Source: Salinisphaera sp.
Lineage (GTDB): Bacteria > Pseudomonadota > Gammaproteobacteria > Nevskiales > Salinisphaeraceae
Length of the DNA: 64,000 nucleotides
Direction of reading: 5' to 3'
NCBI GenBank assembly: GCA_027858915.1
Contig: JAQIBT010000012.1
Span: 1-64,000 of the forward strand
This document shows positions 4,608 to 58,347 of the stretch, one piece after another. The first letter of the stretch is position 1; each line of letters begins with the position of its first letter. Under the pieces are notes generated by a model. It did no database searches. It was given only the letters and a program-made list of their open reading frames with translations, and was not told where the DNA came from. A program made the translations under genes and the position numbers.

Positions 4608-5483
4608 TCAGACAATCTGGGATTGACTCCGCTTGCGAGCGCGCCGATGCATTCGCCGTACTTCACCGCTCAGGTCGATCCGGGGAAGATCCATTTTTGA
4701 GTAAAACGGTGTCCGGCTGCGCCAATTGGCGTGTTCGGTGATGTAAGCGCGGGTATAGCCTGCCACCGACGCCGCACGGCGAACCCGCCAGTTGGTGTCA
4801 CCAAAAGGATAAGCCAGGGTAGTGACCGCGTGGCCCAGCCAGGTTTCAAGTTCTTCCCGCGCTCCCTGCAACTCTCGGCGAAGCTCGACTTCGCTGCAGA
4901 ATCGCAGATCGGGATGACTGCGCGTATGCGCGCCGACGGTGATCAAGGGATGTTCATCAAGAACCCGCAGCTGTTCTCGGCTCAGGTAATCAGCCGTCAG
5001 CTCTGAGCAGTCTATTCGGTAATCCGAAAGGATTGCGGTCTGCCGGACGGCAAGCGCTTCGCTGCCGAGCGTTTTCAAGGCAGCACGCAGCCGTTCGTAG
5101 ACGTCCTGTGCATCCGTCGCGCCTCGCGTGATGTCGACGACAGATGGCCTGAACCAGTTGTCATCGCGTGCTACGAACGCCGCGACTCTTGCCAGCAGTG
5201 GATGTGTGCGATTGATGAAGCCGGTCGTGATGAACACAGTGGCGCGACGCTGGTGTCTTTCGAGAATCGGTAGGGCGGTTGTCAGATTGTCCGCATAGCC
5301 ATCGTCGAAGGTGATCGCGTCCGTCTTACGGCTTTTTGCCACGAACATCTCGAAATCCTCGGGATGCACATGGGTTATTCGATCTGGGCTGATCGCCGGG
5401 GCAGACAGCGGATCGGCGATGCCGTGCGCGAAGTAGCCGCCGTCGCGTGTGAGCTGCTTGAGCAATTTCTTTTTCAGTTTCAT
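4608..5483 (-). CDS. Polysaccharide deacetylase family protein
   Basis: DAITFDDGYADNLTTALPILERH, VGAHTRSHPDL, LAYPFGDTNWRVRRAA. Confidence 0.9.
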   Translation of the reverse strand: MKLKKKLLKQLTRDGGYFAHGIADPLSAPAISPDRITHVHPEDFEMFVAKSRKTDAITFDDGYADNLTTALPILERHQRRATVFITTGFINRTHPLLARVAAFVARDDNWFRPSVVDITRGATDAQDVYERLRAALKTLGSEALAVRQTAILSDYRIDCSELTADYLSREQLRVLDEHPLITVGAHTRSHPDLRFCSEVELRRELQGAREELETWLGHAVTTLAYPFGDTNWRVRRAASVAGYTRAYITEHANWRSRTPFYSKMDLPRIDLSGEVRRMHRRARKRSQSQIV

Positions 5484-5612
5484 GCAATGCGCAATCTGGT
5501 CGATAAAAGCGCCGGTCTACAGTCGTCTGCCGGTTCCGGCGCGTGAGAAGTTCTCTTGTCTTGACAACCTGTCGCGATGGCGCGCCCTGTCAGGAACACG
5601 CGGGCCGGAGAG

Positions 5613-6848
5613 CTAAGCGCGTCGCTCGATTACATCATGAATGAGCGTCATGTATTGCGTGACGCTGGCCTCGATGGAAAACGAGCGGCCGCGCGCGATC
5701 AATGCCTGGCGATCCCACGTGCTTAACAACGATCGTTCGAGGGCGCTGGCTAGCGCATTCACGTCGCCCAGCGGAACCAGCTGCCCATAACGTCCGTAAT
5801 CTAGGATCTCTCTCGGACCGTGCGGACAATCGTAAGCTACCGCGGCACAACCACAGGCTAATGCCTCGATCAGCACGATCGAGAGGCCTTCGGTGTGCGA
5901 CGTCAGAACGAACGAGTCGGCATGGCACAGATAATCAGAGGGCTCGGCAACCCAACCTACCAGGTCAACGTCGTCGGACAGTTCGTAGTCGCTGATCAAT
6001 TTTTCTATGGTTTTCCGTTCAGAACCTTCGCCGAGTATGATCAGTCGCGCGCGACGCCTTGCGTGCAGAATGGATAGCGCCTCAATCAGCTCCGGATAGT
6101 TCTTTTCCGGGCTTAGCCGACCAACGGCGACGAGCACGGGAATCTGCTCATCGTCTTTCAGCCAGGAGTGGGGTGGCGGAGAGCGCAAAAATGCCTGTGA
6201 CGTGTCGATTACTGGGTTGTAAATGGTACGTATTTTTTCTGGAGGGAGGCCGAGCGTATCGACGAGATCGCTTGTAATTCCGTGAGATACGGTGATCAGG
6301 AAATCGGCCGCAGTATAGACCTGGTTGCAGTAATCGATGAAGTGGCGCCATTTCGCCGGGCGTTTGGCGTTCGCCAGACGTTCGGCACAATGATGAAAAT
6401 AAGCACTGTGAAAAATACAGACGACGGCGGTGGACCGCATGCAAACGTCCCGCGCGGACACTGCCGTGAGTGCGAGCTGCCAGAGATTTGAAAGTACCAG
6501 GACCGGCTTCCGTCTCTTGATATATTGCGAAAGACTCGGAAGATAGCGGAGTTTGTCGAGCTGTTTATGGCTGACAAATACGGAGCGCGCCAAGCGCTGA
6601 AAGTTGCCGGACGCGGCCCTGAGCATGTAAAACCGCGCCCACTCCTGGCTCGACTGAACCAGGCTCTCGATATGCACCGCTGCGGGTACCCGTGTTCTGT
6701 ACTCACCGGCGGGATCATTGACTACCAGGTCGACCGCATAGCCTTTATCGAGAAGGCCGTTAATTATATGGAGTACGACCTGCGTCGCGCCGCCGCCACG
6801 CAGATGTTCATGATAAACAGCGATGCGCGGTGGATTATCGACGTTCAA
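5613..6848 (-). CDS. GT4-family glycosyltransferase
   Basis: RGGGATQVVLHIINGLL, VAVGRLSPEKNYPELIEAL, LTSHTEGLSIVLIEALACGCAAVAYDCPHGPREIL. Confidence 0.9.
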   Translation of the reverse strand: MNVDNPPRIAVYHEHLRGGGATQVVLHIINGLLDKGYAVDLVVNDPAGEYRTRVPAAVHIESLVQSSQEWARFYMLRAASGNFQRLARSVFVSHKQLDKLRYLPSLSQYIKRRKPVLVLSNLWQLALTAVSARDVCMRSTAVVCIFHSAYFHHCAERLANAKRPAKWRHFIDYCNQVYTAADFLITVSHGITSDLVDTLGLPPEKIRTIYNPVIDTSQAFLRSPPPHSWLKDDEQIPVLVAVGRLSPEKNYPELIEALSILHARRRARLIILGEGSERKTIEKLISDYELSDDVDLVGWVAEPSDYLCHADSFVLTSHTEGLSIVLIEALACGCAAVAYDCPHGPREILDYGRYGQLVPLGDVNALASALERSLLSTWDRQALIARGRSFSIEASVTQYMTLIHDVIERRA

Positions 6849-42696: not shown

Positions 42697-42763
42697 TCGG
42701 ACACCTGTCGTTACGTGGCCGCGGCCGTTACGGCTGCACCCTTGTTTGAATCGAAGAGTCGCA

Positions 42764-44122
42764 ATGCACGTTCATATCCTGGGCATCGGTGGTACTTTCA
42801 TGGCGGGCGTTGCGCTGCTCGCGCGGGCCGCCGGTCATACGGTCACCGGTTCGGATGCCGGCCTTTACCCGCCCATGAGCACGCAACTGCAGGACGCCGG
42901 GATCGCCGTGTTGGAAGGCTACGATCCGGCGCATCTGTCGCCGGCGCCGGATCAGGTCATCATCGGCAACGCAATGTCACGCGGCAATCCGGCAGTGGAG
43001 CACGTGCTGGACGCCGGGCTGGCCTATATATCCGGGCCGCAGTGGCTGGCAGAGAATGTGCTGGCCGACCGTTGGGTGCTTGCGGTGGCAGGTACCCATG
43101 GCAAGACTACGACCGCCAGCATGCTGGCACACATTCTTCAGGATGCCGGCATGCAGCCGGGCTACCTGATCGGCGGCATGGCGACGGATCTGGGCCGCTC
43201 GGCGGATTTCGGGAGCAGCGATTTCTTTGTCGTCGAGGCAGATGAGTACGATACGGCGTTTTTCGACAAGCGTTCGAAATTCGTGCACTACCGGCCGCGG
43301 ACGCTGGTGCTCAATAATCTGGAATTCGACCACGCAGATATCTTCGATGATTTAGCAGCGATTCAGCGCCAGTTCCATCATCTGATTCGCACCGTGCCCG
43401 GTAGCGGCCAGATCATCGTCAACGGCGAGGATGGCGCGCTGGCCGAGGTGCTGGTCAAGGGCTGCTGGACGCCGGTCGAGCCGTTCAACGATGCTGCCGG
43501 CTGGTTCGCCAGATCTCTGGTGGCCGACAGTCGTCAACTCGAGATTTTCCGCGACGGCCATTCCGTGGGTGAATTGAAATGGGGGCTGCGCGGGGTCCAT
43601 AACGCCAGCAACGCGCTCGCGGCGCTCGCTGCTGCCCGGCACGTCGGTGTCACGCCGGAGATTGGCATCGAGGCGTTATCGCGCTTCCAAGGCGTTGCGC
43701 GGCGCCTCGAGCTGCGCGGCAGACCAGGTGGCGTCAGCGTCTATGACGATTTTGCTCACCATCCGACGGCTATTCGTACCACACTGGCCGGGCTGGCGGC
43801 GACGGCTGATGCCGGACGTCTGCACGTGGTTTTCGAGCCGCGCTCGAACACCATGAAGCGGGGCGTGCACGCACAAACGCTCGCAGACAGCTTCGCCGAT
43901 GCCGACCAGGTGTTTGTATTCGACGCCGGCCTGGAATGGGATGCGGTCTCGATGTTCGCCGCACTGGGAGAGCGCTGCCGCTGCGTTAGCGATATTGATC
44001 GGCTCGTCGACGCCGTCGCCGATGCCGTCGTCCCGGGCGATACCGTGGTCGTAATGAGCAACGGCGGCTTCGGTGGGATCCACGAAAAGTTGATCGATCG
44101 ACTCGGGCGCGGCGTCGCATAA
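42764..44122 (+). CDS. mpl: UDP-N-acetylmuramate:L-alanyl-gamma-D-glutamyl-meso-diaminopimelate ligase
   Basis: MHVHILGIGGTFMAGVALLARAAGHTVTGSD, VAGTHGKTTTASML; ATG at 42764. Confidence 0.95.
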   Translation: MHVHILGIGGTFMAGVALLARAAGHTVTGSDAGLYPPMSTQLQDAGIAVLEGYDPAHLSPAPDQVIIGNAMSRGNPAVEHVLDAGLAYISGPQWLAENVLADRWVLAVAGTHGKTTTASMLAHILQDAGMQPGYLIGGMATDLGRSADFGSSDFFVVEADEYDTAFFDKRSKFVHYRPRTLVLNNLEFDHADIFDDLAAIQRQFHHLIRTVPGSGQIIVNGEDGALAEVLVKGCWTPVEPFNDAAGWFARSLVADSRQLEIFRDGHSVGELKWGLRGVHNASNALAALAAARHVGVTPEIGIEALSRFQGVARRLELRGRPGGVSVYDDFAHHPTAIRTTLAGLAATADAGRLHVVFEPRSNTMKRGVHAQTLADSFADADQVFVFDAGLEWDAVSMFAALGERCRCVSDIDRLVDAVADAVVPGDTVVVMSNGGFGGIHEKLIDRLGRGVA

Positions 44123-44180
44123 ACGGCAACCGCTCCCGGCTAGAAACCTCAATTAAGGATCTCCTCAGCACCAGGCAATA

Positions 44181-44204
44181 AAAAGACCGCCTCAGCGGTC
44201 TTTT
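44181..44204. terminator. Bidirectional intrinsic terminator (mpl on + strand; candidate sRNA on - strand)
   Basis: AAAAGACCGC-CTCA-GCGGTCTTTT, perfect stem with T-tracts both ways. Confidence 0.9.
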
Positions 44205-44260
44205 GTATTCGATCTAATGACTTTCCCATCGTCCGAAGGGAAAGGCACATAATCGCTGTC

Positions 44261-44334
44261 GAATCCGCCGAGCCGAATCGGACAACGCCGAGGCACGAGG
44301 GGGAACCGGGGAGGACCGATCCGGCCGGCGAAAC
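44261..44334 (-). repeat. Structured module 1 (3' copy) of the candidate sRNA
   Basis: GUUUCGCCGGCCGGAUCGG–core–CCGAUUCGGCUCGGCGGAUUC. Confidence 0.75.
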
Positions 44335-44367
44335 AGGTAGGCACATTACGTCAGTCACCCGTATGAA

Positions 44368-44444
44368 GATTCGCTCTGATCGGGCCGGCAACGCCGAGGC
44401 ACGAGGGGGGGGACCGGGAGAGACCGGGCCCGATCAGGCGAAAC
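44368..44444 (-). repeat. Structured module 2 (5' copy) of the candidate sRNA
   Basis: GUUUCGCCUGAUCGGGCC–core–GGCCCGAUCAGAGCGAAUC. Confidence 0.75.
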
Positions 44445-44638
44445 TGGGGACCGCGCAAGCGCGGTGAACATACTCCTTGTGCTAATTGCGTCTAACGTGG
44501 CCCAAGCGGCAGGCACATGGGCATCAGTTTGCTTGTACTACCGTAGTCTCCAGCGTCGCACCCAAGACTAGGGTTGTTACGAGTAACAGCTTGAACAACA
44601 AAAGTTGGCACTCGATTACTTGAACTTACCTTTGTCCA

Positions 44639-44655
44639 AGCAATCGCCGTGCCAA
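44639..44655 (-). promoter_or_regulatory. Sigma-54 promoter, perfect consensus
   Basis: Minus strand T-TGGCACGGCGATTGC-T matches TGGCACGRNNNTTGCW at every specified position; predicted +1 near 44628. Confidence 0.88.
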
Positions 44656-44748
44656 TTAAAATAAAAACAATAAAAACAATTAGATGCAGTGAATTTATAT
44701 AAGCACTGGCTGATTTGGTCGGCTAGTCTTGCAAATAGCCGGGTTTTC

Positions 44749-44766
44749 TGTCGTTAAAAAGCGACA
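44749..44766. promoter_or_regulatory. GlrR-type upstream activator site 1
   Basis: TGTC-GTTAAAAAGC-GACA (arms extend to TCTGTCG/CGACAGA). Confidence 0.75.
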
Positions 44767-44812
44767 GATATTGGGGGTAATCTATAAGCGTCTGTTATTG
44801 ATGCGCTAATAA

Positions 44813-44830
44813 TGTCGTCAATTTGAGACA
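44813..44830. promoter_or_regulatory. GlrR-type upstream activator site 2
   Basis: TGTC-GTCAATTTGA-GACA. Confidence 0.75.
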
Positions 44831-44856
44831 TCTTATGGGGGCCGTCACGACGCGGC

Positions 44857-44874
44857 TGTCGTTGTCAGGCAACA
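44857..44874. promoter_or_regulatory. GlrR-type upstream activator site 3 (one mismatch)
   Basis: TGTC-GTTGTCAGGC-AACA. Confidence 0.5.
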
Positions 44875-44886
44875 GACGGCGTTGGC

Positions 44887-46248
44887 TCAGAGCTTGTAAT
44901 CGGCGGGGTCGATCTGGTGCCGATTGAGCAGCTTGTAGAATTCGGTTCGGTTGCGCTGAGCCATTCGGGCGCTGCGTGATACGTTGCCTTCGGCAATTCG
45001 TAGCAACTGAATCAGATAGTCGCGAACGAAATCATCGCGTGCTTCAGCCAGCGGTTTGAGGTGGCCGCCAACATTGGGAGTATCCGAGCCCTGCCTATAG
45101 AGCGCCTTCTCGACTGCCGATACACCGATCACCTGGCCACGCGTCAGTGCGACGTTCTGTTCGACTACGTTTGACAACTGCCGGATGTTGCCGGGCCAGT
45201 GATAGGTGGCCAGACGCTCCATGGCGTCAGGCGCATAGACCTTGGCTCGCCGACCTGCGCGACGTGCAAGATGATCGAGAAAATGGCGGGCCAGCGGGGC
45301 GACGTCTTCTGCGCGTTCTGCCAGCGACGGTAGATCGAGGCTCACCACGGCCAGTCGATAGTAAAGATCCTCCCGAAACGCGTGCCCGGCAACCGAGGCG
45401 TTGAGATCGCGATGCGTGGCGGAGATCACGCGTACGTCGACCGCTATCGAGCGTGCCGATCCGACCGGTCGTACTTCGCGCTCCTGTAGTACGCGCAGTA
45501 GTTTGACCTGGAGGGCAACCGGCATATCGCCGATTTCGTCGAGAAAGATCGTGCCCCCCTCGGCGCTGCGAAACAAGCCTGGCTGGGCGTTCTTGGCATC
45601 GGTGAACGCGCCTTTTTCATGGCCGAACAGCTCAGACTCGAGTAATTGCTCTGGCATTGCGCCGCAGTTGATGGCGACGAAAGGCTGGCGCCCACGCGGA
45701 CTGGCTTCGTGCATGACCCGCGCCATCACTTCCTTGCCGGTACCTGATTCGCCGGTAATCAGCACGCTGGTATCGGTGTCGGCGACCAGGCGCGCATCCG
45801 CCAGGCGTGCGCGCATCAGCGGTGACCTCGTCACGATTCGATGGGTCCAGATTGACTCCCAGGCATCTGCCGGCAGCCCGCCTTGGGCGAGAGCCTGTTC
45901 TACCCGCGACAGCAGCGCCTCCTTGTCCACCGGCTTGGAGAGAAAGTCGAGCGCGCCGGCCTGAGTGGCAGCTACCGCTTCAGGGATTGTGCCATGAGCC
46001 GTGATCAGGATCACCGGTAGCGTGGGATGAGCCTGGGACAGTCGTTCCAGCAGGCCCAGCCCGTCCATTCCGTCCATTCGCAGATCGGTGATGACGCATT
46101 CGGCTGGATGTTGCTCAAGCAGTGACAACGCTCGGGCGCCACTTTCGGCGGTGGTCACGATGTGTCCAGCGCCTTCCAGACGCAGCGTCAGCAACCGGCG
46201 CAGGCTGGGATCGTCGTCAACCAGCAGGATATGACCGCGACGCTTCAT
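44887..46248 (-). CDS. glrR: Sigma-54-dependent response regulator, GlrR/QseF-like
   Basis: Receiver domain, GESGTGKEVMARVMHEASPR, GAFTDAKNAQPGLF, C-terminal HTH; operon order glrK-qseG-glrR. Confidence 0.92.
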   Translation of the reverse strand: MKRRGHILLVDDDPSLRRLLTLRLEGAGHIVTTAESGARALSLLEQHPAECVITDLRMDGMDGLGLLERLSQAHPTLPVILITAHGTIPEAVAATQAGALDFLSKPVDKEALLSRVEQALAQGGLPADAWESIWTHRIVTRSPLMRARLADARLVADTDTSVLITGESGTGKEVMARVMHEASPRGRQPFVAINCGAMPEQLLESELFGHEKGAFTDAKNAQPGLFRSAEGGTIFLDEIGDMPVALQVKLLRVLQEREVRPVGSARSIAVDVRVISATHRDLNASVAGHAFREDLYYRLAVVSLDLPSLAERAEDVAPLARHFLDHLARRAGRRAKVYAPDAMERLATYHWPGNIRQLSNVVEQNVALTRGQVIGVSAVEKALYRQGSDTPNVGGHLKPLAEARDDFVRDYLIQLLRIAEGNVSRSARMAQRNRTEFYKLLNRHQIDPADYKL

Positions 46249-46250
46249 GC

Positions 46251-46886
46251 TCAGGTGCCGCTGTCTGCTGAATCGAGCCGCTCTTCGATATGCGCGAGAG
46301 CGCGTAGTTTGCGATGGGCGTCGTCTAGTTCCGAGCGCAGCTGATCGATTTCTGCCTTGTCGTTAGCCGCGCCATCCCCGTTGTCTGGAGAAGAGCCTGC
46401 AGCGGTGGAAGCTTTGGTCTGGTTGTTCGTGAGTTGGGTGTACAGCCGCGCATAGTCGGTCAGGTACTGGCGGGCAGCCGGGGTCCAGGGTGACGGTTGG
46501 GCATCCAGTGCCAACTGCGCGTAGCGCGCTGCTTCATCCGGCGTATACAGTCGTTGGCCGGGCGTTCCCAGCGCGATCGCCAGGCGCGCATACTCGGTAG
46601 CGTTGGGTATTTTGCGGATATCGTCGCGTGCAGTATTAACCGCAGCCTCGCGTCCATCGGGCGTGATCGCAGCCAGATGATGAGCGTAGTCGAGCAGGGC
46701 TACCGCGGGATCACGCACAGGATGCGTCCTGCAAGAGGTTGCCGTCGCCTGCGCGGGGGCGCGGTCAATAGTCGTGCAGCCGGTCGCCGCCAGCACGGCA
46801 AAGACCACCGTCCCACAGCAGAGCACGCGCGCCCGCTGAAACGCAGCGATGCCCAGACCATCGCGGCCGGACCCGTTAAAGCGCAT
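46251..46886 (-). CDS. QseG-like lipoprotein
   Basis: Lipobox-like LAATGC; C-terminal coiled coil EIDQLRSELDDAHRKLRALAHIEERL; lies between glrK and glrR. Confidence 0.75.
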   Translation of the reverse strand: MRFNGSGRDGLGIAAFQRARVLCCGTVVFAVLAATGCTTIDRAPAQATATSCRTHPVRDPAVALLDYAHHLAAITPDGREAAVNTARDDIRKIPNATEYARLAIALGTPGQRLYTPDEAARYAQLALDAQPSPWTPAARQYLTDYARLYTQLTNNQTKASTAAGSSPDNGDGAANDKAEIDQLRSELDDAHRKLRALAHIEERLDSADSGT

Positions 46887-48411
46887 GAGGAGAGGGAATA
46901 TGGACTTTGAACACGGCGCCGCCCTCGGCCCCGGATTCGACTCGAATATGACCGCTGTGCGCCTGGACACATTCGCGTACCACGGATAGCCCGATACCGC
47001 TGCCCTTGACGCCGATAGCGTCAACGGCGCGGCGGCTGCCCCTGAAGAAGACATCGAAAATAGCATCCCTCTCATCGGCGGCAACGCCGGGGCCCTGGTC
47101 AGCCACGCTCAAGTCGACGCCGTCGTGCCGGCTCGTGACGGTAATCCTCACGCGCGAGGACGTGGGTGCGAATTTCACCGCATTGGCAAGCAAATTGTCG
47201 ACGATCAGATGCATTCGGTCTCGGTCCGCTGTCACTGCAAGTATCAATCCGGGTCGTTCGACTCGAAGATTCTTCCCCTCGATCGTGAGTTTCTGACGAG
47301 CCACGATCGCCTCGATGAGCGCGCTAATATCAAAGCGTTTGTACTCCAGTTTACCGCGCCGTTGCTGCCAGGCGGAAAAATCCAGCAGGCTTTCAATCAA
47401 GCCTGCGAGCTCTAGGCTGTTGCGCTGGAGTATGTCGGCGACTTCTGCCTGAGCCGGGTCGAGTTGGCCTACGGTTCCGTCGCGCAGCAATTCAGCGCCT
47501 TCGCGGATGCTGGCCAGAGGCGTTTTCAACTCGTGCGACATGTCCCGGATAAATTGCTGTTTCTCTTTATCCAGCGTGGCGAGGCGGCGTCGCATCCAGT
47601 CCAGGCGCGCGCCTAAGCGATCGAGTTCGGCTGCCGGTGCGACGATTCTGATCTGCTGCGAGAAATCCGCATCGCCCAGCCGGGTGACCGCTTGCAGAAT
47701 CTGGCGCAGCGGCCGACCGATAACCCAGGACAGGAAAACGCCAAGAATCAACACAGCCGGCACCAGCGCGAACAGGCTCAACAAAACGAAAATACGCGCG
47801 CTGGCGGCTGTGCCCTGCAGGTGGCCGAGTTCCTTGTCGACGAAGCGGCTGCCCTGAGCGGCGATCCGATCGGTCTGCTTACCGACCGTGCCCAGCGCCG
47901 CAATCACTTTATCAGTAGCCTGTTTGTCTTCGCCGAGTTGTCGCGATAAGCCCGTAACCTGGCGTGACAGACGATTGAGATTCCAGTCGGGAACGGTATC
48001 CAGCTTCAGCATGGCCAGCGTATCGAGTTCGTCGTCGAAGGCCTTGGCCTGACTCTGGAACCGGGCCAGCAGTTCGCCTGTGCGCAGCACGCGGTACTGG
48101 CGTGCGCTGCGCTCCATGGACAGCAGCAGGCTGTTCAGGCGCTTGCTCGAACGGGTTACCTCCACGCCCTGCTTGACCAGCCGTTCGCTCTGGTTGTTAA
48201 GCGTATCCACATAGACCACGCTGGCAAGCACCGCCACGATCAACGGTGCCGCGACCAGGCCAAAGCTCACCACCAGCAGGCCGGTGATCGAGCGTGGCCG
48301 CAACCAGCGACGTGTCGCAGATGACGAGCTCGCGGGTTCGCTGTGTTCGACAACGTGTTCTGGCATGCGCGCAGCATACCGCCTCGCGCGCGCCGCAGCA
48401 TGTCGCCTCAT
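46876..48411 (-). CDS. glrK: Sensor histidine kinase, GlrK/QseE-like
   Basis: HAMP, FIRDMSHELKTPLASIREGAELL, GSGIGLSVVREC. Confidence 0.9.
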   Translation of the reverse strand: MRRHAAARARRYAARMPEHVVEHSEPASSSSATRRWLRPRSITGLLVVSFGLVAAPLIVAVLASVVYVDTLNNQSERLVKQGVEVTRSSKRLNSLLLSMERSARQYRVLRTGELLARFQSQAKAFDDELDTLAMLKLDTVPDWNLNRLSRQVTGLSRQLGEDKQATDKVIAALGTVGKQTDRIAAQGSRFVDKELGHLQGTAASARIFVLLSLFALVPAVLILGVFLSWVIGRPLRQILQAVTRLGDADFSQQIRIVAPAAELDRLGARLDWMRRRLATLDKEKQQFIRDMSHELKTPLASIREGAELLRDGTVGQLDPAQAEVADILQRNSLELAGLIESLLDFSAWQQRRGKLEYKRFDISALIEAIVARQKLTIEGKNLRVERPGLILAVTADRDRMHLIVDNLLANAVKFAPTSSRVRITVTSRHDGVDLSVADQGPGVAADERDAIFDVFFRGSRRAVDAIGVKGSGIGLSVVRECVQAHSGHIRVESGAEGGAVFKVHIPSPHAL

Positions 48412-54080: not shown

Positions 54081-54938
54081 TCAGCGCAGCTCGTTGTGGC
54101 GCACCAGGATATGGTTTTGATCGGCACGCAGCAGCGCCGCTACCTGTTCGACCAGATAGACCGAGCGATGCTTGCCGCCGGTACAGCCGATAGCGACGGT
54201 GACATAGCTGCGATCCTCGCGGGCGAAGCTGGGCAGCCAGCGCTTGAGAAATCCGTGGATATCGTCACGCATGGCGTGTGTGGCCGGCTGCGAGGCCAGG
54301 TGCTCGGCGACTTCGGCGTCGAGCCCGGTCAAAGGCCGCAGGGCAGGCACCCAGTGCGGGTTGGGCAGACAGCGCACGTCGAATACGAAGTCCACGGCCT
54401 GTGGCAGCCCGTATTTGTATCCAAAAGACTGCACCAGAATCGACAGTTCGCCGGACTGCGCGCCTTCCACCCGGTTGCGGATGATGTCGCGCAGCTGGTG
54501 GATATTGGTCCGGCTGGTATCGATGGTGATGTCGGCGCTATCGGCGATCGGCTGGGTGAGCGTTCGGTCGGCGGCGACCGCGTCAACCAGCGTGCGGCGC
54601 TCGTCGGACAGCGGATGCTTGCGCCGGGTTTCGGAGTAGCGCCGCAGGATCGTCTCTTCGCTGGCATGTAGGTAGATCACTTCGATCTGGATGCCACCGG
54701 CACGCAGTTCGGCGATCCGCTCGGCGAACCGATGAATTTCGCCCGTGCGAGCCCTGGCGTCGATGCCCACTGCGAGTCGGTCAAAATCCAGGCCTTGCTG
54801 ATGCAGTGTTTCGGCTGACACTTCGCGCAACAGCCCCAGCGGTAGATTGTCAATGCAGTAGTAGCCCAGATCCTCGAGCATGTTCAATGCCACCGACTTG
54901 CCGGCTCCGGCCAGTCCGCTGACGACGATCAGTCGCAT
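54081..54938 (-). CDS. rapZ: RNase adapter protein RapZ (YvcJ family)
   Basis: LIVVSGLAGAGKSVALNMLEDLGYYCIDNLP, FDVRCLPNPHWVPALRPLTG, AIGCTGGKHRSVYL. Confidence 0.97.
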   Translation of the reverse strand: MRLIVVSGLAGAGKSVALNMLEDLGYYCIDNLPLGLLREVSAETLHQQGLDFDRLAVGIDARARTGEIHRFAERIAELRAGGIQIEVIYLHASEETILRRYSETRRKHPLSDERRTLVDAVAADRTLTQPIADSADITIDTSRTNIHQLRDIIRNRVEGAQSGELSILVQSFGYKYGLPQAVDFVFDVRCLPNPHWVPALRPLTGLDAEVAEHLASQPATHAMRDDIHGFLKRWLPSFAREDRSYVTVAIGCTGGKHRSVYLVEQVAALLRADQNHILVRHNELR

Positions 54939-55933
54939 GATGAGACTCCTTCGGAGGTTGCGAGTGCTTGGGCCTGACGGGCAGCGAACTGCTCGTCGCT
55001 GTAGTGCCCCTGCATGCGGAGCAGGTGATCGCGACAGGCCGCCTCGACCAGTACCGACAGATTATGACCGACCGCGACCGGCAGTGTGATCTGCGGAATA
55101 TCCGTGTCCAGAATCTCATGCATTGCACGCGAACCGGTGAGCCGATCCGGCGCATCCAGAATTCCGGACTCCGGGCGCACCAGCCGGATGATCAAGCCCA
55201 GCTGCTTGCGGCGTTTGATCGCGGCTTCGCCAAACATGGCGCGGATATTGAGTATTCCCAGACCCCGAACTTCGAGAAAATCCTGCAGCAGCGGCGGGCA
55301 GCCACCGTTGAGATCATCCGGCCCCAGGAGCACGAACTCCGGTGCGTCGTCGGCTACCAGTCGATGGCCGCGGTTGATCAGCTCCAGCGCCAGTTCGCTC
55401 TTGCCGACGCCGGGATCGCCGACCAGCATCAAGCCGATCGAGAGCACTTCGAGAAATACGCCGTGCAGGGTGATTTGTCGGGCCAGGCTCTCGCCCAGAA
55501 AATGGCGTAGTCGATAGGCGACGCGATGGCCGCTGGCGTGGGTCTCGAATACCGCGATGCCGGCGTCACGCAGCGCCGCGGCCAAGGGGATGGCCAGCGC
55601 CTGGCCATCGGCCAGCACCAACAGGCGGGTGGCTCCGGTGGTCAGGCGTGCCCGGATGTGTGCGGCCAGGTCGTCACCGAGTGAAGCCAGATAGGCAGTC
55701 TCTGGTTCGCCGACGATCTGTACCTGCGGTGGATGGATGAAATTCAGATAGCCGACGGTCGGAACCCGCCAGCCGTCGATCTCGGTTGGGCCGATACTGT
55801 TATTGCTGCCGATGTCCGGTGCTGGCCAGCGCAGTGCCAGCGAACTGCCCAGCTGTTCAAACACCGCATCGACCCGGACGCGACGAGTGGTCGAGCGATC
55901 CGCGGGTACGTTCTCGGGCGAGGCGATTGTCAC
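54929..55933 (-). CDS. hprK: HPr kinase/phosphorylase
   Basis: LMLVGDPGVGKSELALELINRGHRLVADDAPEF, EVRGLGILNIRAMFG. Confidence 0.96.
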   Translation of the reverse strand: MTIASPENVPADRSTTRRVRVDAVFEQLGSSLALRWPAPDIGSNNSIGPTEIDGWRVPTVGYLNFIHPPQVQIVGEPETAYLASLGDDLAAHIRARLTTGATRLLVLADGQALAIPLAAALRDAGIAVFETHASGHRVAYRLRHFLGESLARQITLHGVFLEVLSIGLMLVGDPGVGKSELALELINRGHRLVADDAPEFVLLGPDDLNGGCPPLLQDFLEVRGLGILNIRAMFGEAAIKRRKQLGLIIRLVRPESGILDAPDRLTGSRAMHEILDTDIPQITLPVAVGHNLSVLVEAACRDHLLRMQGHYSDEQFAARQAQALATSEGVSSCD

Positions 55934-56024
55934 GACGCCACGATCCCGACAGTGGGTAAGCGGCCGGGACGGCGGCTAGCGCTTAGCGCTGAGTCATGAG
56001 AGCCGGTGTCGCCGCCTTGCGCCA

Positions 56025-56489
56025 TCATCCGTCCGATACGTCGTGGGCCAGCAGCCTGGAATGTAGTGCGCCATCGTCGCCGGCATCGCGCAGATCCGCC
56101 AATGTCTGTGGATCGGAGAACATCTCGGCCAGTCGTCGCAACAGATTCAGATGATCATCGGTTGCCTCTTCCGGCACGAGCAGCCCGAAGATCAGGTCCA
56201 CGGGCTGCTCGTCGTTGGCTTCGAAGTCCACGGCCTGGGGAAGACGCATGAAAGCGCCGACACATTCGTCGGTGCCCTTGAGCCGGGCGTGGGGGATGGC
56301 CACGCCATCGCCCACCCCGGTGCTGCCGAGTTTTTCGCGCCCGATCAGGCCGGTGAAGATATCACCGGCCGTCAGATAGGGCGTGCCCTGGGTGAGAACC
56401 TCCGATAGTTGTTCCAGTGCGCGCTTCTTGCTCTGTACGTCATCGGCAAGACGCACACGTTCGGGTGCGACGATATCGGCTATATTCAT
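56025..56489 (-). CDS. ptsN: PTS IIA-like nitrogen regulatory protein
   Basis: LIGREKLGSTGVGDGVAIPHARL. Confidence 0.95.
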   Translation of the reverse strand: MNIADIVAPERVRLADDVQSKKRALEQLSEVLTQGTPYLTAGDIFTGLIGREKLGSTGVGDGVAIPHARLKGTDECVGAFMRLPQAVDFEANDEQPVDLIFGLLVPEEATDDHLNLLRRLAEMFSDPQTLADLRDAGDDGALHSRLLAHDVSDG

Positions 56490-56504
56490 GCAGTGTCGAC
56501 GGCT

Positions 56505-56831
56505 TCAGTCCGTGCTCATATCGATATGGCGCGCTTCGCCGTTGCGATGGTCGTGGTTCTTTTCCTTGTGTCGCAATGTCTGCCGATCGAGCTTGTCGAT
56601 CATGCAGTCGATGGCGGCGTACATGTCGTCCTTGGTCGATTCGGCGTGCAGCTTAGCGCCCCGCAGTTTCACGGTGATCTCGGCCTTGTGGCGCAGCTTT
56701 TCAACTTCCAGTACCACTTCGGCGTCGAGCACGTGATCGAAATGCCGTTCGATGCGTTCCATCTTGCTCGATACATACGCATGCAGCGCATTGGTCATGT
56801 CCACGTGGTGGCCGGAGATGTTGAGATTCAT
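56505..56831 (-). CDS. hpf: Ribosome hibernation promoting factor
   Basis: MNLNISGHHVDMTNALHAYVSSKMERIERHFDHV. Confidence 0.95.
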   Translation of the reverse strand: MNLNISGHHVDMTNALHAYVSSKMERIERHFDHVLDAEVVLEVEKLRHKAEITVKLRGAKLHAESTKDDMYAAIDCMIDKLDRQTLRHKEKNHDHRNGEARHIDMSTD

Positions 56832-56886
56832 CGCGTGCTCCTTTGCAGCTTTAGGTTGACTAGCAGGAATCGTTGAACCATTGGGA

Positions 56887-58347
56887 TTAGCTGGCCTGCC
56901 TCCTGCGCTCGTGCGAGGGCGGGATGGACAAGGCTTCGCGATACTTGGCCACGGTACGTCGGGCGACCTGGATACCGTTGTCCAGCAGCAGCTCTGCCAG
57001 TTTGCTGTCGGATAGCGGCTTGCCTGATGTCTCTGCGGCGACCATGCGCTTGATCATCGCCTGGATGGCGGTCGCCGATGCGCTGCCGCCGTCGGTGGTC
57101 GACACGTGGCTGGAAAAGAAATACTTGAGTTCGAATATGCCGCGCGGTGTCTGCATGTACTTGTTGGCCGTTGCCCGGGACACGGTGGATTCGTGAATTT
57201 CGAGTCGTTCGGCCACGTCGCGGAGCACCAGCGGTTTCATTGCCTCTTCACCATATTCCAGAAAAGCGCGCTGTGCTTCAACTATGCAATGAGCGACCTG
57301 CAGCAACGTATCGTTGCGGCTCTTGAGGCTGTTGAGAAAGAACCGGGCTTCCTGCAGGTGAGACTTGAGTGTGGTCTGGTCAGCCGACTTGTCCGCGCGC
57401 TTGATCAAGGCCAGATATTGGCTGTTGATGCGCAGCTTTGGCGCGATATCGGCGTTGAGCGCGACGTGCCATCCTTGTTCGCCGCGCGTCACGAACACCT
57501 CGGGTACCACATACGTCGATTCGTGATCGGTGAACGCTTCGCCCGGGCGTGGCTGCAGCGTCTGGATCAGCGCGACGGCTGCGCCGACATCGCCAGGTTC
57601 GACGCCAAGCCGGCGCGCCAGGGCATCGCGCTGGCCGCTGGCCAGGCTTTCCAGCGGCAAATTCTCGACGATAGACAGAGCAAGCTCGCGCGCCGGCACG
57701 TCGGCCGGCAGCTGGCGCAGCTGAATTCGCAGGCATTCTGCAAGATTGCGGGCCGCCACGCCCGGTGGATCAAACTGCTGGATCTGAGCCAGCACGGCTT
57801 CGATCGCGTCGCTGCCGGTGTTGAACTCGGCGTCCAGGCGTTCGCACATATCGGCCCACTCGGGCAGCAGGCCGTCGGTATCGATGCCGTCGATGATCAC
57901 GGCCGCCATGGCTCGCTGGCTGACGCTGAACGAATGCATGTCCGCCTGCCAGCTCAGATGCGCATACAGATCTGGGGTGCTCGACAGATTGGCCTGTCGG
58001 TAGTCCCAGTAGTCTTCGTCGTCGCTGGTCGGCGCGGGCGCGCTGGGCGCCGCACTGCCGGCATAGATATCGTTCCAGTCGGCGTCGACCGGCAGATTCT
58101 CGGGAATCTCGGCGACATCCTTGTCTCGGCCGCGCTCGGCGTCGGCGGTCTTGCGCTCGGTCTCGGCGTCGGGCATGTCGATCTCGCCGTGGCCGTCGTC
58201 TGCCTCGAGCATGACGTTGGAATCCAGCGCGTCCTGAATCTCCGATTTCAGATCGAGCGTGGACAGTTGCAGCATGCGGATTGCCTGCTGAAGCGCCGGG
58301 GTCATCGTCAGCGATTGACCCAGCCCAAGATGCATCGACTGTTTCAC
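56887..58347 (-). CDS. rpoN: RNA polymerase sigma-54 factor
   Basis: [32 protein letters not shown]; RpoN box [12 protein letters not shown]. Confidence 0.97.

Follow-up and report, generated by a model that had tools for sequence, protein, structure and literature searches.

A tandem-hairpin RNA with a C-rich loop behind a glmY-type promoter in Salinisphaera: a candidate anti-Shine-Dalgarno regulator of flagellar and other surface proteins

Introduction

C-rich motifs of the Listeria LhrC RNAs act against ribosome sites. These RNAs (LhrC1-5) form a multicopy sRNA group that is induced by cell-envelope stress via the two-component system LisRK (PMC4132741). In the Alphaproteobacteria, the CcsR1-4, cuckoo and CIN1 loci carry three to four tandem hairpins with a common C-rich anti-Shine-Dalgarno loop and variable stems (PMC10253847, PMC3927594). 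For the Campylobacter RNAs CjNC1 and CjNC4, pairing is predicted with ribosome-binding sites in a number of flagellar mRNAs, that of a hook gene among them (PMC4626219), and repression by the Campylobacter RNAs was shown in E. coli reporters (PMC4626219; PMC11187230 for CJnc170/CJnc230). A fourth reference point is the glmY gene of E. coli, where three TGTN12ACA sites for QseF lie before the sigma-54 promoter (PMC6075780); the consensus of QseF (GlrR) is TGTN12ACA or TGTCN10GACA (PMC6075780, PMC8745638).

The locus described here shares features with each of these systems. It comes from Salinisphaera, a gammaproteobacterial genus for which our literature search found no small-RNA study.

The locus and its control region

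The RNA array lies on the minus strand between glrR and mpl in the window, i.e., the whole stretch of 64,000 nucleotides that was analysed. Its parts and neighbours are as follows.

44368..44444, minus strand: RNA module 1 (5′ copy), hairpin with C-rich apical loop; covariance-model match 44369-44443, 78.4 bits
44261..44334, minus strand: RNA module 2 (3′ copy), hairpin with C-rich apical loop; covariance-model match 44263-44333, 68.1 bits
44392..44418, minus strand: CCCGGUCCCCCCCCUCGUGCCUCGGCG, the conserved core and predicted seed of module 1; in the ensemble, the C-tract of its loop is unpaired at about 0.88
44286..44310, minus strand: CCCGGUUCCCCCUCGUGCCUCGGCG, the conserved core and predicted seed of module 2, from conservation and predicted loop exposure
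44640..44654, minus strand: sigma-54 promoter TGGCAC-N5-TTGC, exact; exact copy 5′ of the array in 14/14 genomes
44749..44766, minus strand: GlrR/QseF-type site TGTC-N10-GACA, exact, about 112 nt 5′ of the promoter (consensus PMC8745638)
44813..44830, minus strand: GlrR/QseF-type site, exact, about 176 nt 5′ of the promoter, by sequence match
44857..44874, minus strand: GlrR/QseF-type site, one mismatch, about 220 nt 5′ of the promoter, by sequence match
44180..44204, minus strand: intrinsic terminator AAAAGACCGCTGAGGCGGTCTTTTT, predicted 3′ end of the transcript
44180..44628, minus strand: predicted transcript of about 450 nt, its putative start placed from the promoter
44488..44523, minus strand: relic of a small EF-hand protein gene, by local alignment to the L009 EF-hand gene
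44887..46248, minus strand: glrR (qseF), sigma-54-activating response regulator; best NCBIfam model GlrR, 2.1e-178, below the curated cut-off
46251..47084, minus strand: ORF at the place of qseG, without a match to any family; overlaps the end of glrK, true start probably later
46876..48411, minus strand: histidine kinase in the glrK (qseE) position, with HAMP, HisKA and HATPase_c
42746..44122, plus strand: mpl, murein-peptide ligase, convergent neighbour; TIGR01081, 655.9 bits, cut-off 388.7
54081-54938: rapZ, 10 kb from the RNA
56887-58347: rpoN

With rpoN, hpf, ptsN and rapZ at 54081-58347, all less than 14 kb from glrKGR and the RNA, one neighbourhood houses much of a GlmY-like circuit.

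The exact TGGCAC-N5-TTGC promoter is located 148-426 nt 5′ of the first core in 14/14 genomes, and a GlrR-type TGTC-N10-GACA site with at most one mismatch is located 175-223 nt 5′ of the promoter in the same 14/14; several genomes possess three such sites, near 112, 176 and 220 nt. A GC hairpin followed by a T-run, i.e., a terminator, is found 3′ of the last module, again in 14/14. The promoter type and the regulator match those of glmY, whereas the RNA does not, and the placement of the sites suggests activation by GlrR. The original prediction for this DNA had described neither the sigma-54 promoter and GlrR sites nor the copy range of two to five and the flagellar targets discussed below.

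Immediately after glrR, an exact sigma-54 promoter together with GlrR-type sites was also observed in two genomes of other families (L118 in G018, L124 in G075), where the promoter is followed by a long hairpin region and by an ORF for a BON-domain-like exported protein, respectively. The position of the promoter behind glrR may be older than the Salinisphaera RNA.

Between the promoter and the first module, nine of the 14 genomes carry an ORF for a small EF-hand protein with a hydrophobic N-terminus (L002, L003, L005-L011; Pfam EF-hand_5, 5.9e-11). There is no EF-hand ORF at the locus in G010, G002, G008 and G006, and the window genome holds a relic of 36 nt, whose alignment to the L009 gene scores 46 vs. 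26 for the best of 200 shuffles. Since the modules sit between the EF-hand ORF and the terminator in 9/14 genomes, they might be read as a structured 3′ UTR that only stabilises or terminates the EF-hand message. However, the five genomes without the ORF keep promoter, modules and terminator, and a stabiliser needs no invariant loop, and we consider this reading very improbable. Because promoter, modules and terminator persist in 14/14 genomes and the EF-hand ORF in only 9/14, the RNA is the conserved product.

Structure and conservation of the modules

The original prediction placed two tandem modules on the minus strand, each pairing with itself; both lie where it put them and both fold better than shuffled sequences. 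The 5′ module reaches −39.8 kcal/mol (z −5.1), with 0/200 dinucleotide shuffles as good, and the 3′ module −36.9 kcal/mol (z −2.4), with 3/200 as good; the whole predicted transcript is also more stable than its shuffles (z −5.0). The differences between the two stems had been taken as compensatory change. Two copies alone are compatible with an old duplication, so that homologues were needed, and 38 modules from 14 Salinisphaera genomes settle the covariation. In a model-fitted alignment of these modules, 94.8% of the stem cells are paired and eight stem pairs are changed on both sides (44 cells), which bears out compensatory change; since this alignment was model-fitted and its sequences share ancestry, such counts lend support but should not be read as exact probabilities. 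The covariation score is 0.268 vs. 0.177 ± 0.009 for shuffled alignments, with 0/500 shuffles reaching 0.268, and it is at most 0.135 once the pairing partners are slid. An unfitted MAFFT alignment gives a similar picture.

The proposed C-rich core stood in part: a conserved core exists (CCCCCUCGUGCC), but the strings named for it, UCUCUCCC and UCCUCCCC, lie 5′ of the conserved part and are variable. Over the 38 modules, the near-invariant core reads CCCGGU-C(5-8)-UCGUGCCUCGR, in which GGUC5-8UCGUGCC hardly varies and is predicted to be exposed in the apical loop of all 38 copies, while the stems vary. In the predicted ensemble, 39/39 modules have a C-tract that is 0.66-0.94 unpaired. When the 5′ half alone is folded, most modules form an alternative 5′ hairpin (GGGCCGG with CCGGUCC), which is perhaps a folding intermediate, although its GC-rich palindromic arms make a chance origin likely. 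A repeated peptide was rejected as the source of the conservation, because the cores are not spaced in multiples of three and the modules differ in length by single bases.

By DNA search, the modules were found in 14/14 Salinisphaera genomes, and three relatives from the family but not the genus had none. A covariance model built on the 38 modules, which is the kind of search that the original prediction had proposed, recovered 14/14 Salinisphaera genomes and one sister-genus genome (G014). Each Salinisphaera genome has a single locus of two to five tandem copies, which in 14/14 genomes occupies the interval between glrR and mpl, with its orientation unchanged. When 85 genomes of the order and about 387 (384-387) sampled from the class are searched with the model, only Salinisphaera and G014 match, under strict filters that might miss very weak relatives. 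The modules match no family in Rfam. Tandem copies of varying number are also what a mobile or selfish REP-like repeat would leave, its RNA having no function. However, the one locus per genome with fixed place and orientation, the covarying stems and the conserved promoter and terminator render such an origin negligibly probable.

The G014 match is one degenerate module (44.6 bits, E 1.2e-6) with the core CCCGGUCCCCCUCGUACACCG, which retains the loop and has GGU/ACC in place of GGU/GCC as its short closing helix, still paired. At this locus (L046, reverse strand, ~5339-5900) the order is glrK, a qseG-like gene and one module; these are followed by a weak sigma-54-like site, which a GlrR-type site precedes by 175 nt, and by another module-like hairpin (17 bits, E 0.13). 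The glrR gene is gone from the locus, and its best match is on another contig (C12). A Salinisphaera array is also carried by L026 (NZ_JAGHQU010000007.1), which is labelled Endozoicomonas sp. G2_2, probably in error.

Predicted targets

The target scan started from genes in which ACGAGGGG, complementary to the loop sequence CCCCUCGU, stands immediately 5′ of the ATG. There are few such genes per genome, and they include flgE and flgG in G001 and G010 and flgF and fliE in the window genome. For counting, a gene was scored as having a target site when a run of 7 nt or more between −24 and −3 relative to the start is perfectly complementary to the core. In the eight flagellate Salinisphaera genomes, 28/54 rod, hook and MS-ring genes have such a site, in a flagellar focus that arose from scanning and a subset that was picked after the data were seen. 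The corresponding counts are 11/207 for the other flagellar genes of Salinisphaera, 26/964 for the non-flagellar genes of G010 and, in outgroup relatives that lack the RNA, 1/108 for flagellar genes (1/32 for the rod/hook/MS-ring subset). Only 2/2000 shuffled cores reach 28 matches. Restricted to the five genomes from which the flagellar idea had not arisen, the count is 17/33, and with one genome per clade it is 11/21. Fisher tests yield tiny p values but count orthologues as independent observations, and the per-genome values of 6e-4 to 3e-7 are the safer guide. An enrichment ranking made independently of the RNA, over 7-mers that occur 10 times or more, is topped by ACGAGGG (17/54 vs. 4/964) and CACGAGG (12/54 vs. 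3/964), both of which fall inside the complement of the core.

Among individual genes, flgE has CACGAGG(G) or ACGAGGGG in 7/8 flagellate Salinisphaera, with diverging flanks, flgG has ACGAGGG(G) in 5/8, flgC has CACGAGG in 4/8, and flgB of G011 has GGCACGAGGG; the flg operon of relatives without the RNA shows mostly 3-5 nt of complement. In G010, GCACGAGG precedes flhD, whose start codons are uncertain, and GGGGGGACC precedes flhC. That the core could pair with Shine-Dalgarno regions had been suggested from the window, and these complements at ribosome-binding sites support it.

Binding energies of −16 kcal/mol or lower were obtained for 15/38 flagellar-cluster sites of G010 vs. 109/964 of the rest (p 1.4e-5), the background being 1.2 Mb with 1002 called genes, i.e., 30% of one genome with simple gene and start calls. 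A difference as large occurs in 0/60 shuffled cores; part of it is explained by rod-gene ribosome sites that are already G-rich (shuffled cores, mean −1.8 vs. −3.4 kcal/mol). A cofold of module and leader cannot represent loop pairing, and an accessibility calculation was used instead; for flgE, flgF and fliE of the window genome it gives net pairing of −10.3 to −13.3 kcal/mol after the opening costs of both partners.

Three other candidates were set aside. The original prediction had singled out glmS as a target, but the 12 glmS leaders read hold no conserved complement to the core. Long perfect antisense was also rejected, as GCACGAGGGGG occurs in the window genome only inside the modules; its outside matches in other species lie, among those read, mostly within genes, and one (G010) lies just 5′ of a start, in one species. 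Finally, CGAGGGG before ATG is mostly ordinary Shine-Dalgarno enrichment, and its instance at glrK of the window lies inside coding sequence.

Six of the 14 species, in which a search finds no flgG, keep the RNA with the same core. Flagellar genes therefore cannot be the sole reason for its conservation, and the RNA has targets besides them. In G014, the module and flagella are present, but its flagellar genes have no such complement sites. One may then ask whether a similar antisense RNA acts mainly on exported and surface proteins in general (fimbrial, exported, murein-related), the flagellar genes being the part that is visible in flagellates. The core is kept in 14/14 species and flgG in only eight, ACGAGGGG lies directly 5′ of the start of a gene for a fimbrial subunit in the non-flagellate species G002 and G008 (L214 and L215), a possible alternative target, and it also precedes several proteins with signal-peptide-like N-termini. 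However, this candidate set was read by eye from a list without background comparison, and no individual non-flagellar target emerged as conserved from clade to clade; we regard this version as unlikely.

A further alternative is that the tandem loops titrate an RNA-binding protein, in the manner of GlmY/RapZ, CsrB/CsrA or CrcZ/Hfq-Crc, the flagellar match being secondary or accidental. Such a decoy would fit the two to five copies with identical loops and divergent stems, the promoter of glmY type and rapZ at 10 kb. However, the invariant stretch far exceeds a typical protein motif and matches 7-10 nt before rod and hook genes. The conserved loop has no GGA, as a CsrA-binding loop of the CsrB/RsmZ type would, the sequence has no A-rich Hfq/Crc repeats, and there is no covariance match to GlmY/GlmZ. 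A decoy is thus rather improbable. An rsmX match was rejected, as it has 14.7 bits, under the gathering score of 56, and covers the terminator region only.

Proposed function and mechanism

The covarying structure, predicted loop exposure, promoter architecture and excess of complementary sites computed here point to a multi-hairpin anti-Shine-Dalgarno RNA, controlled by GlrR and sigma-54, that represses translation of flagellar and other surface proteins; we give this reading a probability of roughly 0.6. The RNA appears to be switched on by the envelope-sensing GlrK/GlrR pair, and flagellum building is then probably halted. A GlrK signal would lead phosphorylated GlrR to the upstream TGTC-N10-GACA sites and so activate the sigma-54 promoter. 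The resulting transcript, about 450 nt in the window genome, would bear the tandem hairpins, each with the same C-rich loop. In the cell, the loop GGUCCCCCCUCGUGCC would pair with its complement GGCACGAGGGGGGACC in the ribosome-binding sites of rod, hook and MS-ring mRNAs (flgB, flgC, flgE, flgF, flgG, fliE, fliF) and block their translation, with flhD and flhC as further putative targets in some species and probably other surface-protein mRNAs. The repeats would provide several seeds per molecule, and the hairpins are perhaps cut apart by RNase E in the linkers. Pairing at a Shine-Dalgarno region predicts repression; activation may be an alternative outcome.

We propose, with somewhat less than even confidence, that the GlrK/GlrR/sigma-54 envelope circuit swaps its RNA output, from the enteric GlmY, a decoy for RapZ, to an unrelated multi-hairpin antisense RNA in Salinisphaera that stops rod and hook assembly (the flagellar part that must cross peptidoglycan) via a shared seed toward which the target sites evolved.

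If the main reading is true, the multi-hairpin anti-Shine-Dalgarno design described in Alphaproteobacteria would extend to another class and another sigma factor, and GlrK/GlrR would gain a concrete predicted output outside enteric bacteria. The locus would then be a test case for a circuit that keeps its promoter while replacing its RNA. That several rod, hook and MS-ring ribosome sites converge on a common RNA seed is a prediction open to direct test.

Comparison with known RNA systems

In its wiring, the locus resembles GlmY/GlmZ (PMC6075780, PMC7073468): it has a GlrR(QseF)/sigma-54 promoter with three upstream sites in the window and at least one in 14/14 genomes (binding predicted from sequence), it adjoins glrK-qseG-glrR, and rapZ and glmS are in the genome. 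However, the Salinisphaera RNA is located 3′ of glrR, whereas enterobacterial glmY is located 5′ of glrK. The RNA itself differs in its tandem modules, its predicted flagellar targets and its lack of sequence or covariance similarity: GlmY/GlmZ (RF00128/RF00083) have no gathering-score match in the window and none at E up to 5 in 44100-44900. Also in contrast to GlmY/GlmZ, the core has no conserved complement in 12 glmS leaders.

The CcsR/cuckoo loci likewise have a small-protein gene in front, one alternative-sigma promoter and a terminator at the end, and the two to five tandem hairpins of Salinisphaera, with covarying stems and an invariant loop, follow the same plan. We note four differences. 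First, the CcsR loop is CCUCCUCCC, whereas that of Salinisphaera is the invariant C5-8UCGUGCC. Second, CcsR depends on RpoHI/RpoHII, whereas Salinisphaera uses sigma-54/GlrR. Third, the CcsR protein is DUF1127, whereas Salinisphaera has an EF-hand protein in 9/14 genomes and none in 5/14. Fourth, the CcsR/cuckoo loci are described from Alphaproteobacteria only. Because motif, protein and sigma factor differ, the Salinisphaera RNA is not a member of that group.

CjNC1 and CjNC4 are sigma-28-dependent single short RNAs that lack tandem hairpins and are unrelated in sequence, and LhrC1-5 are separate genes of a Gram-positive host, also unrelated in sequence. The Salinisphaera array is thus a new RNA family, absent from Rfam, which is nearest in design to the CcsR/cuckoo loci and nearest in wiring to glmY, and whose predicted targets recall those of CjNC1/CjNC4.
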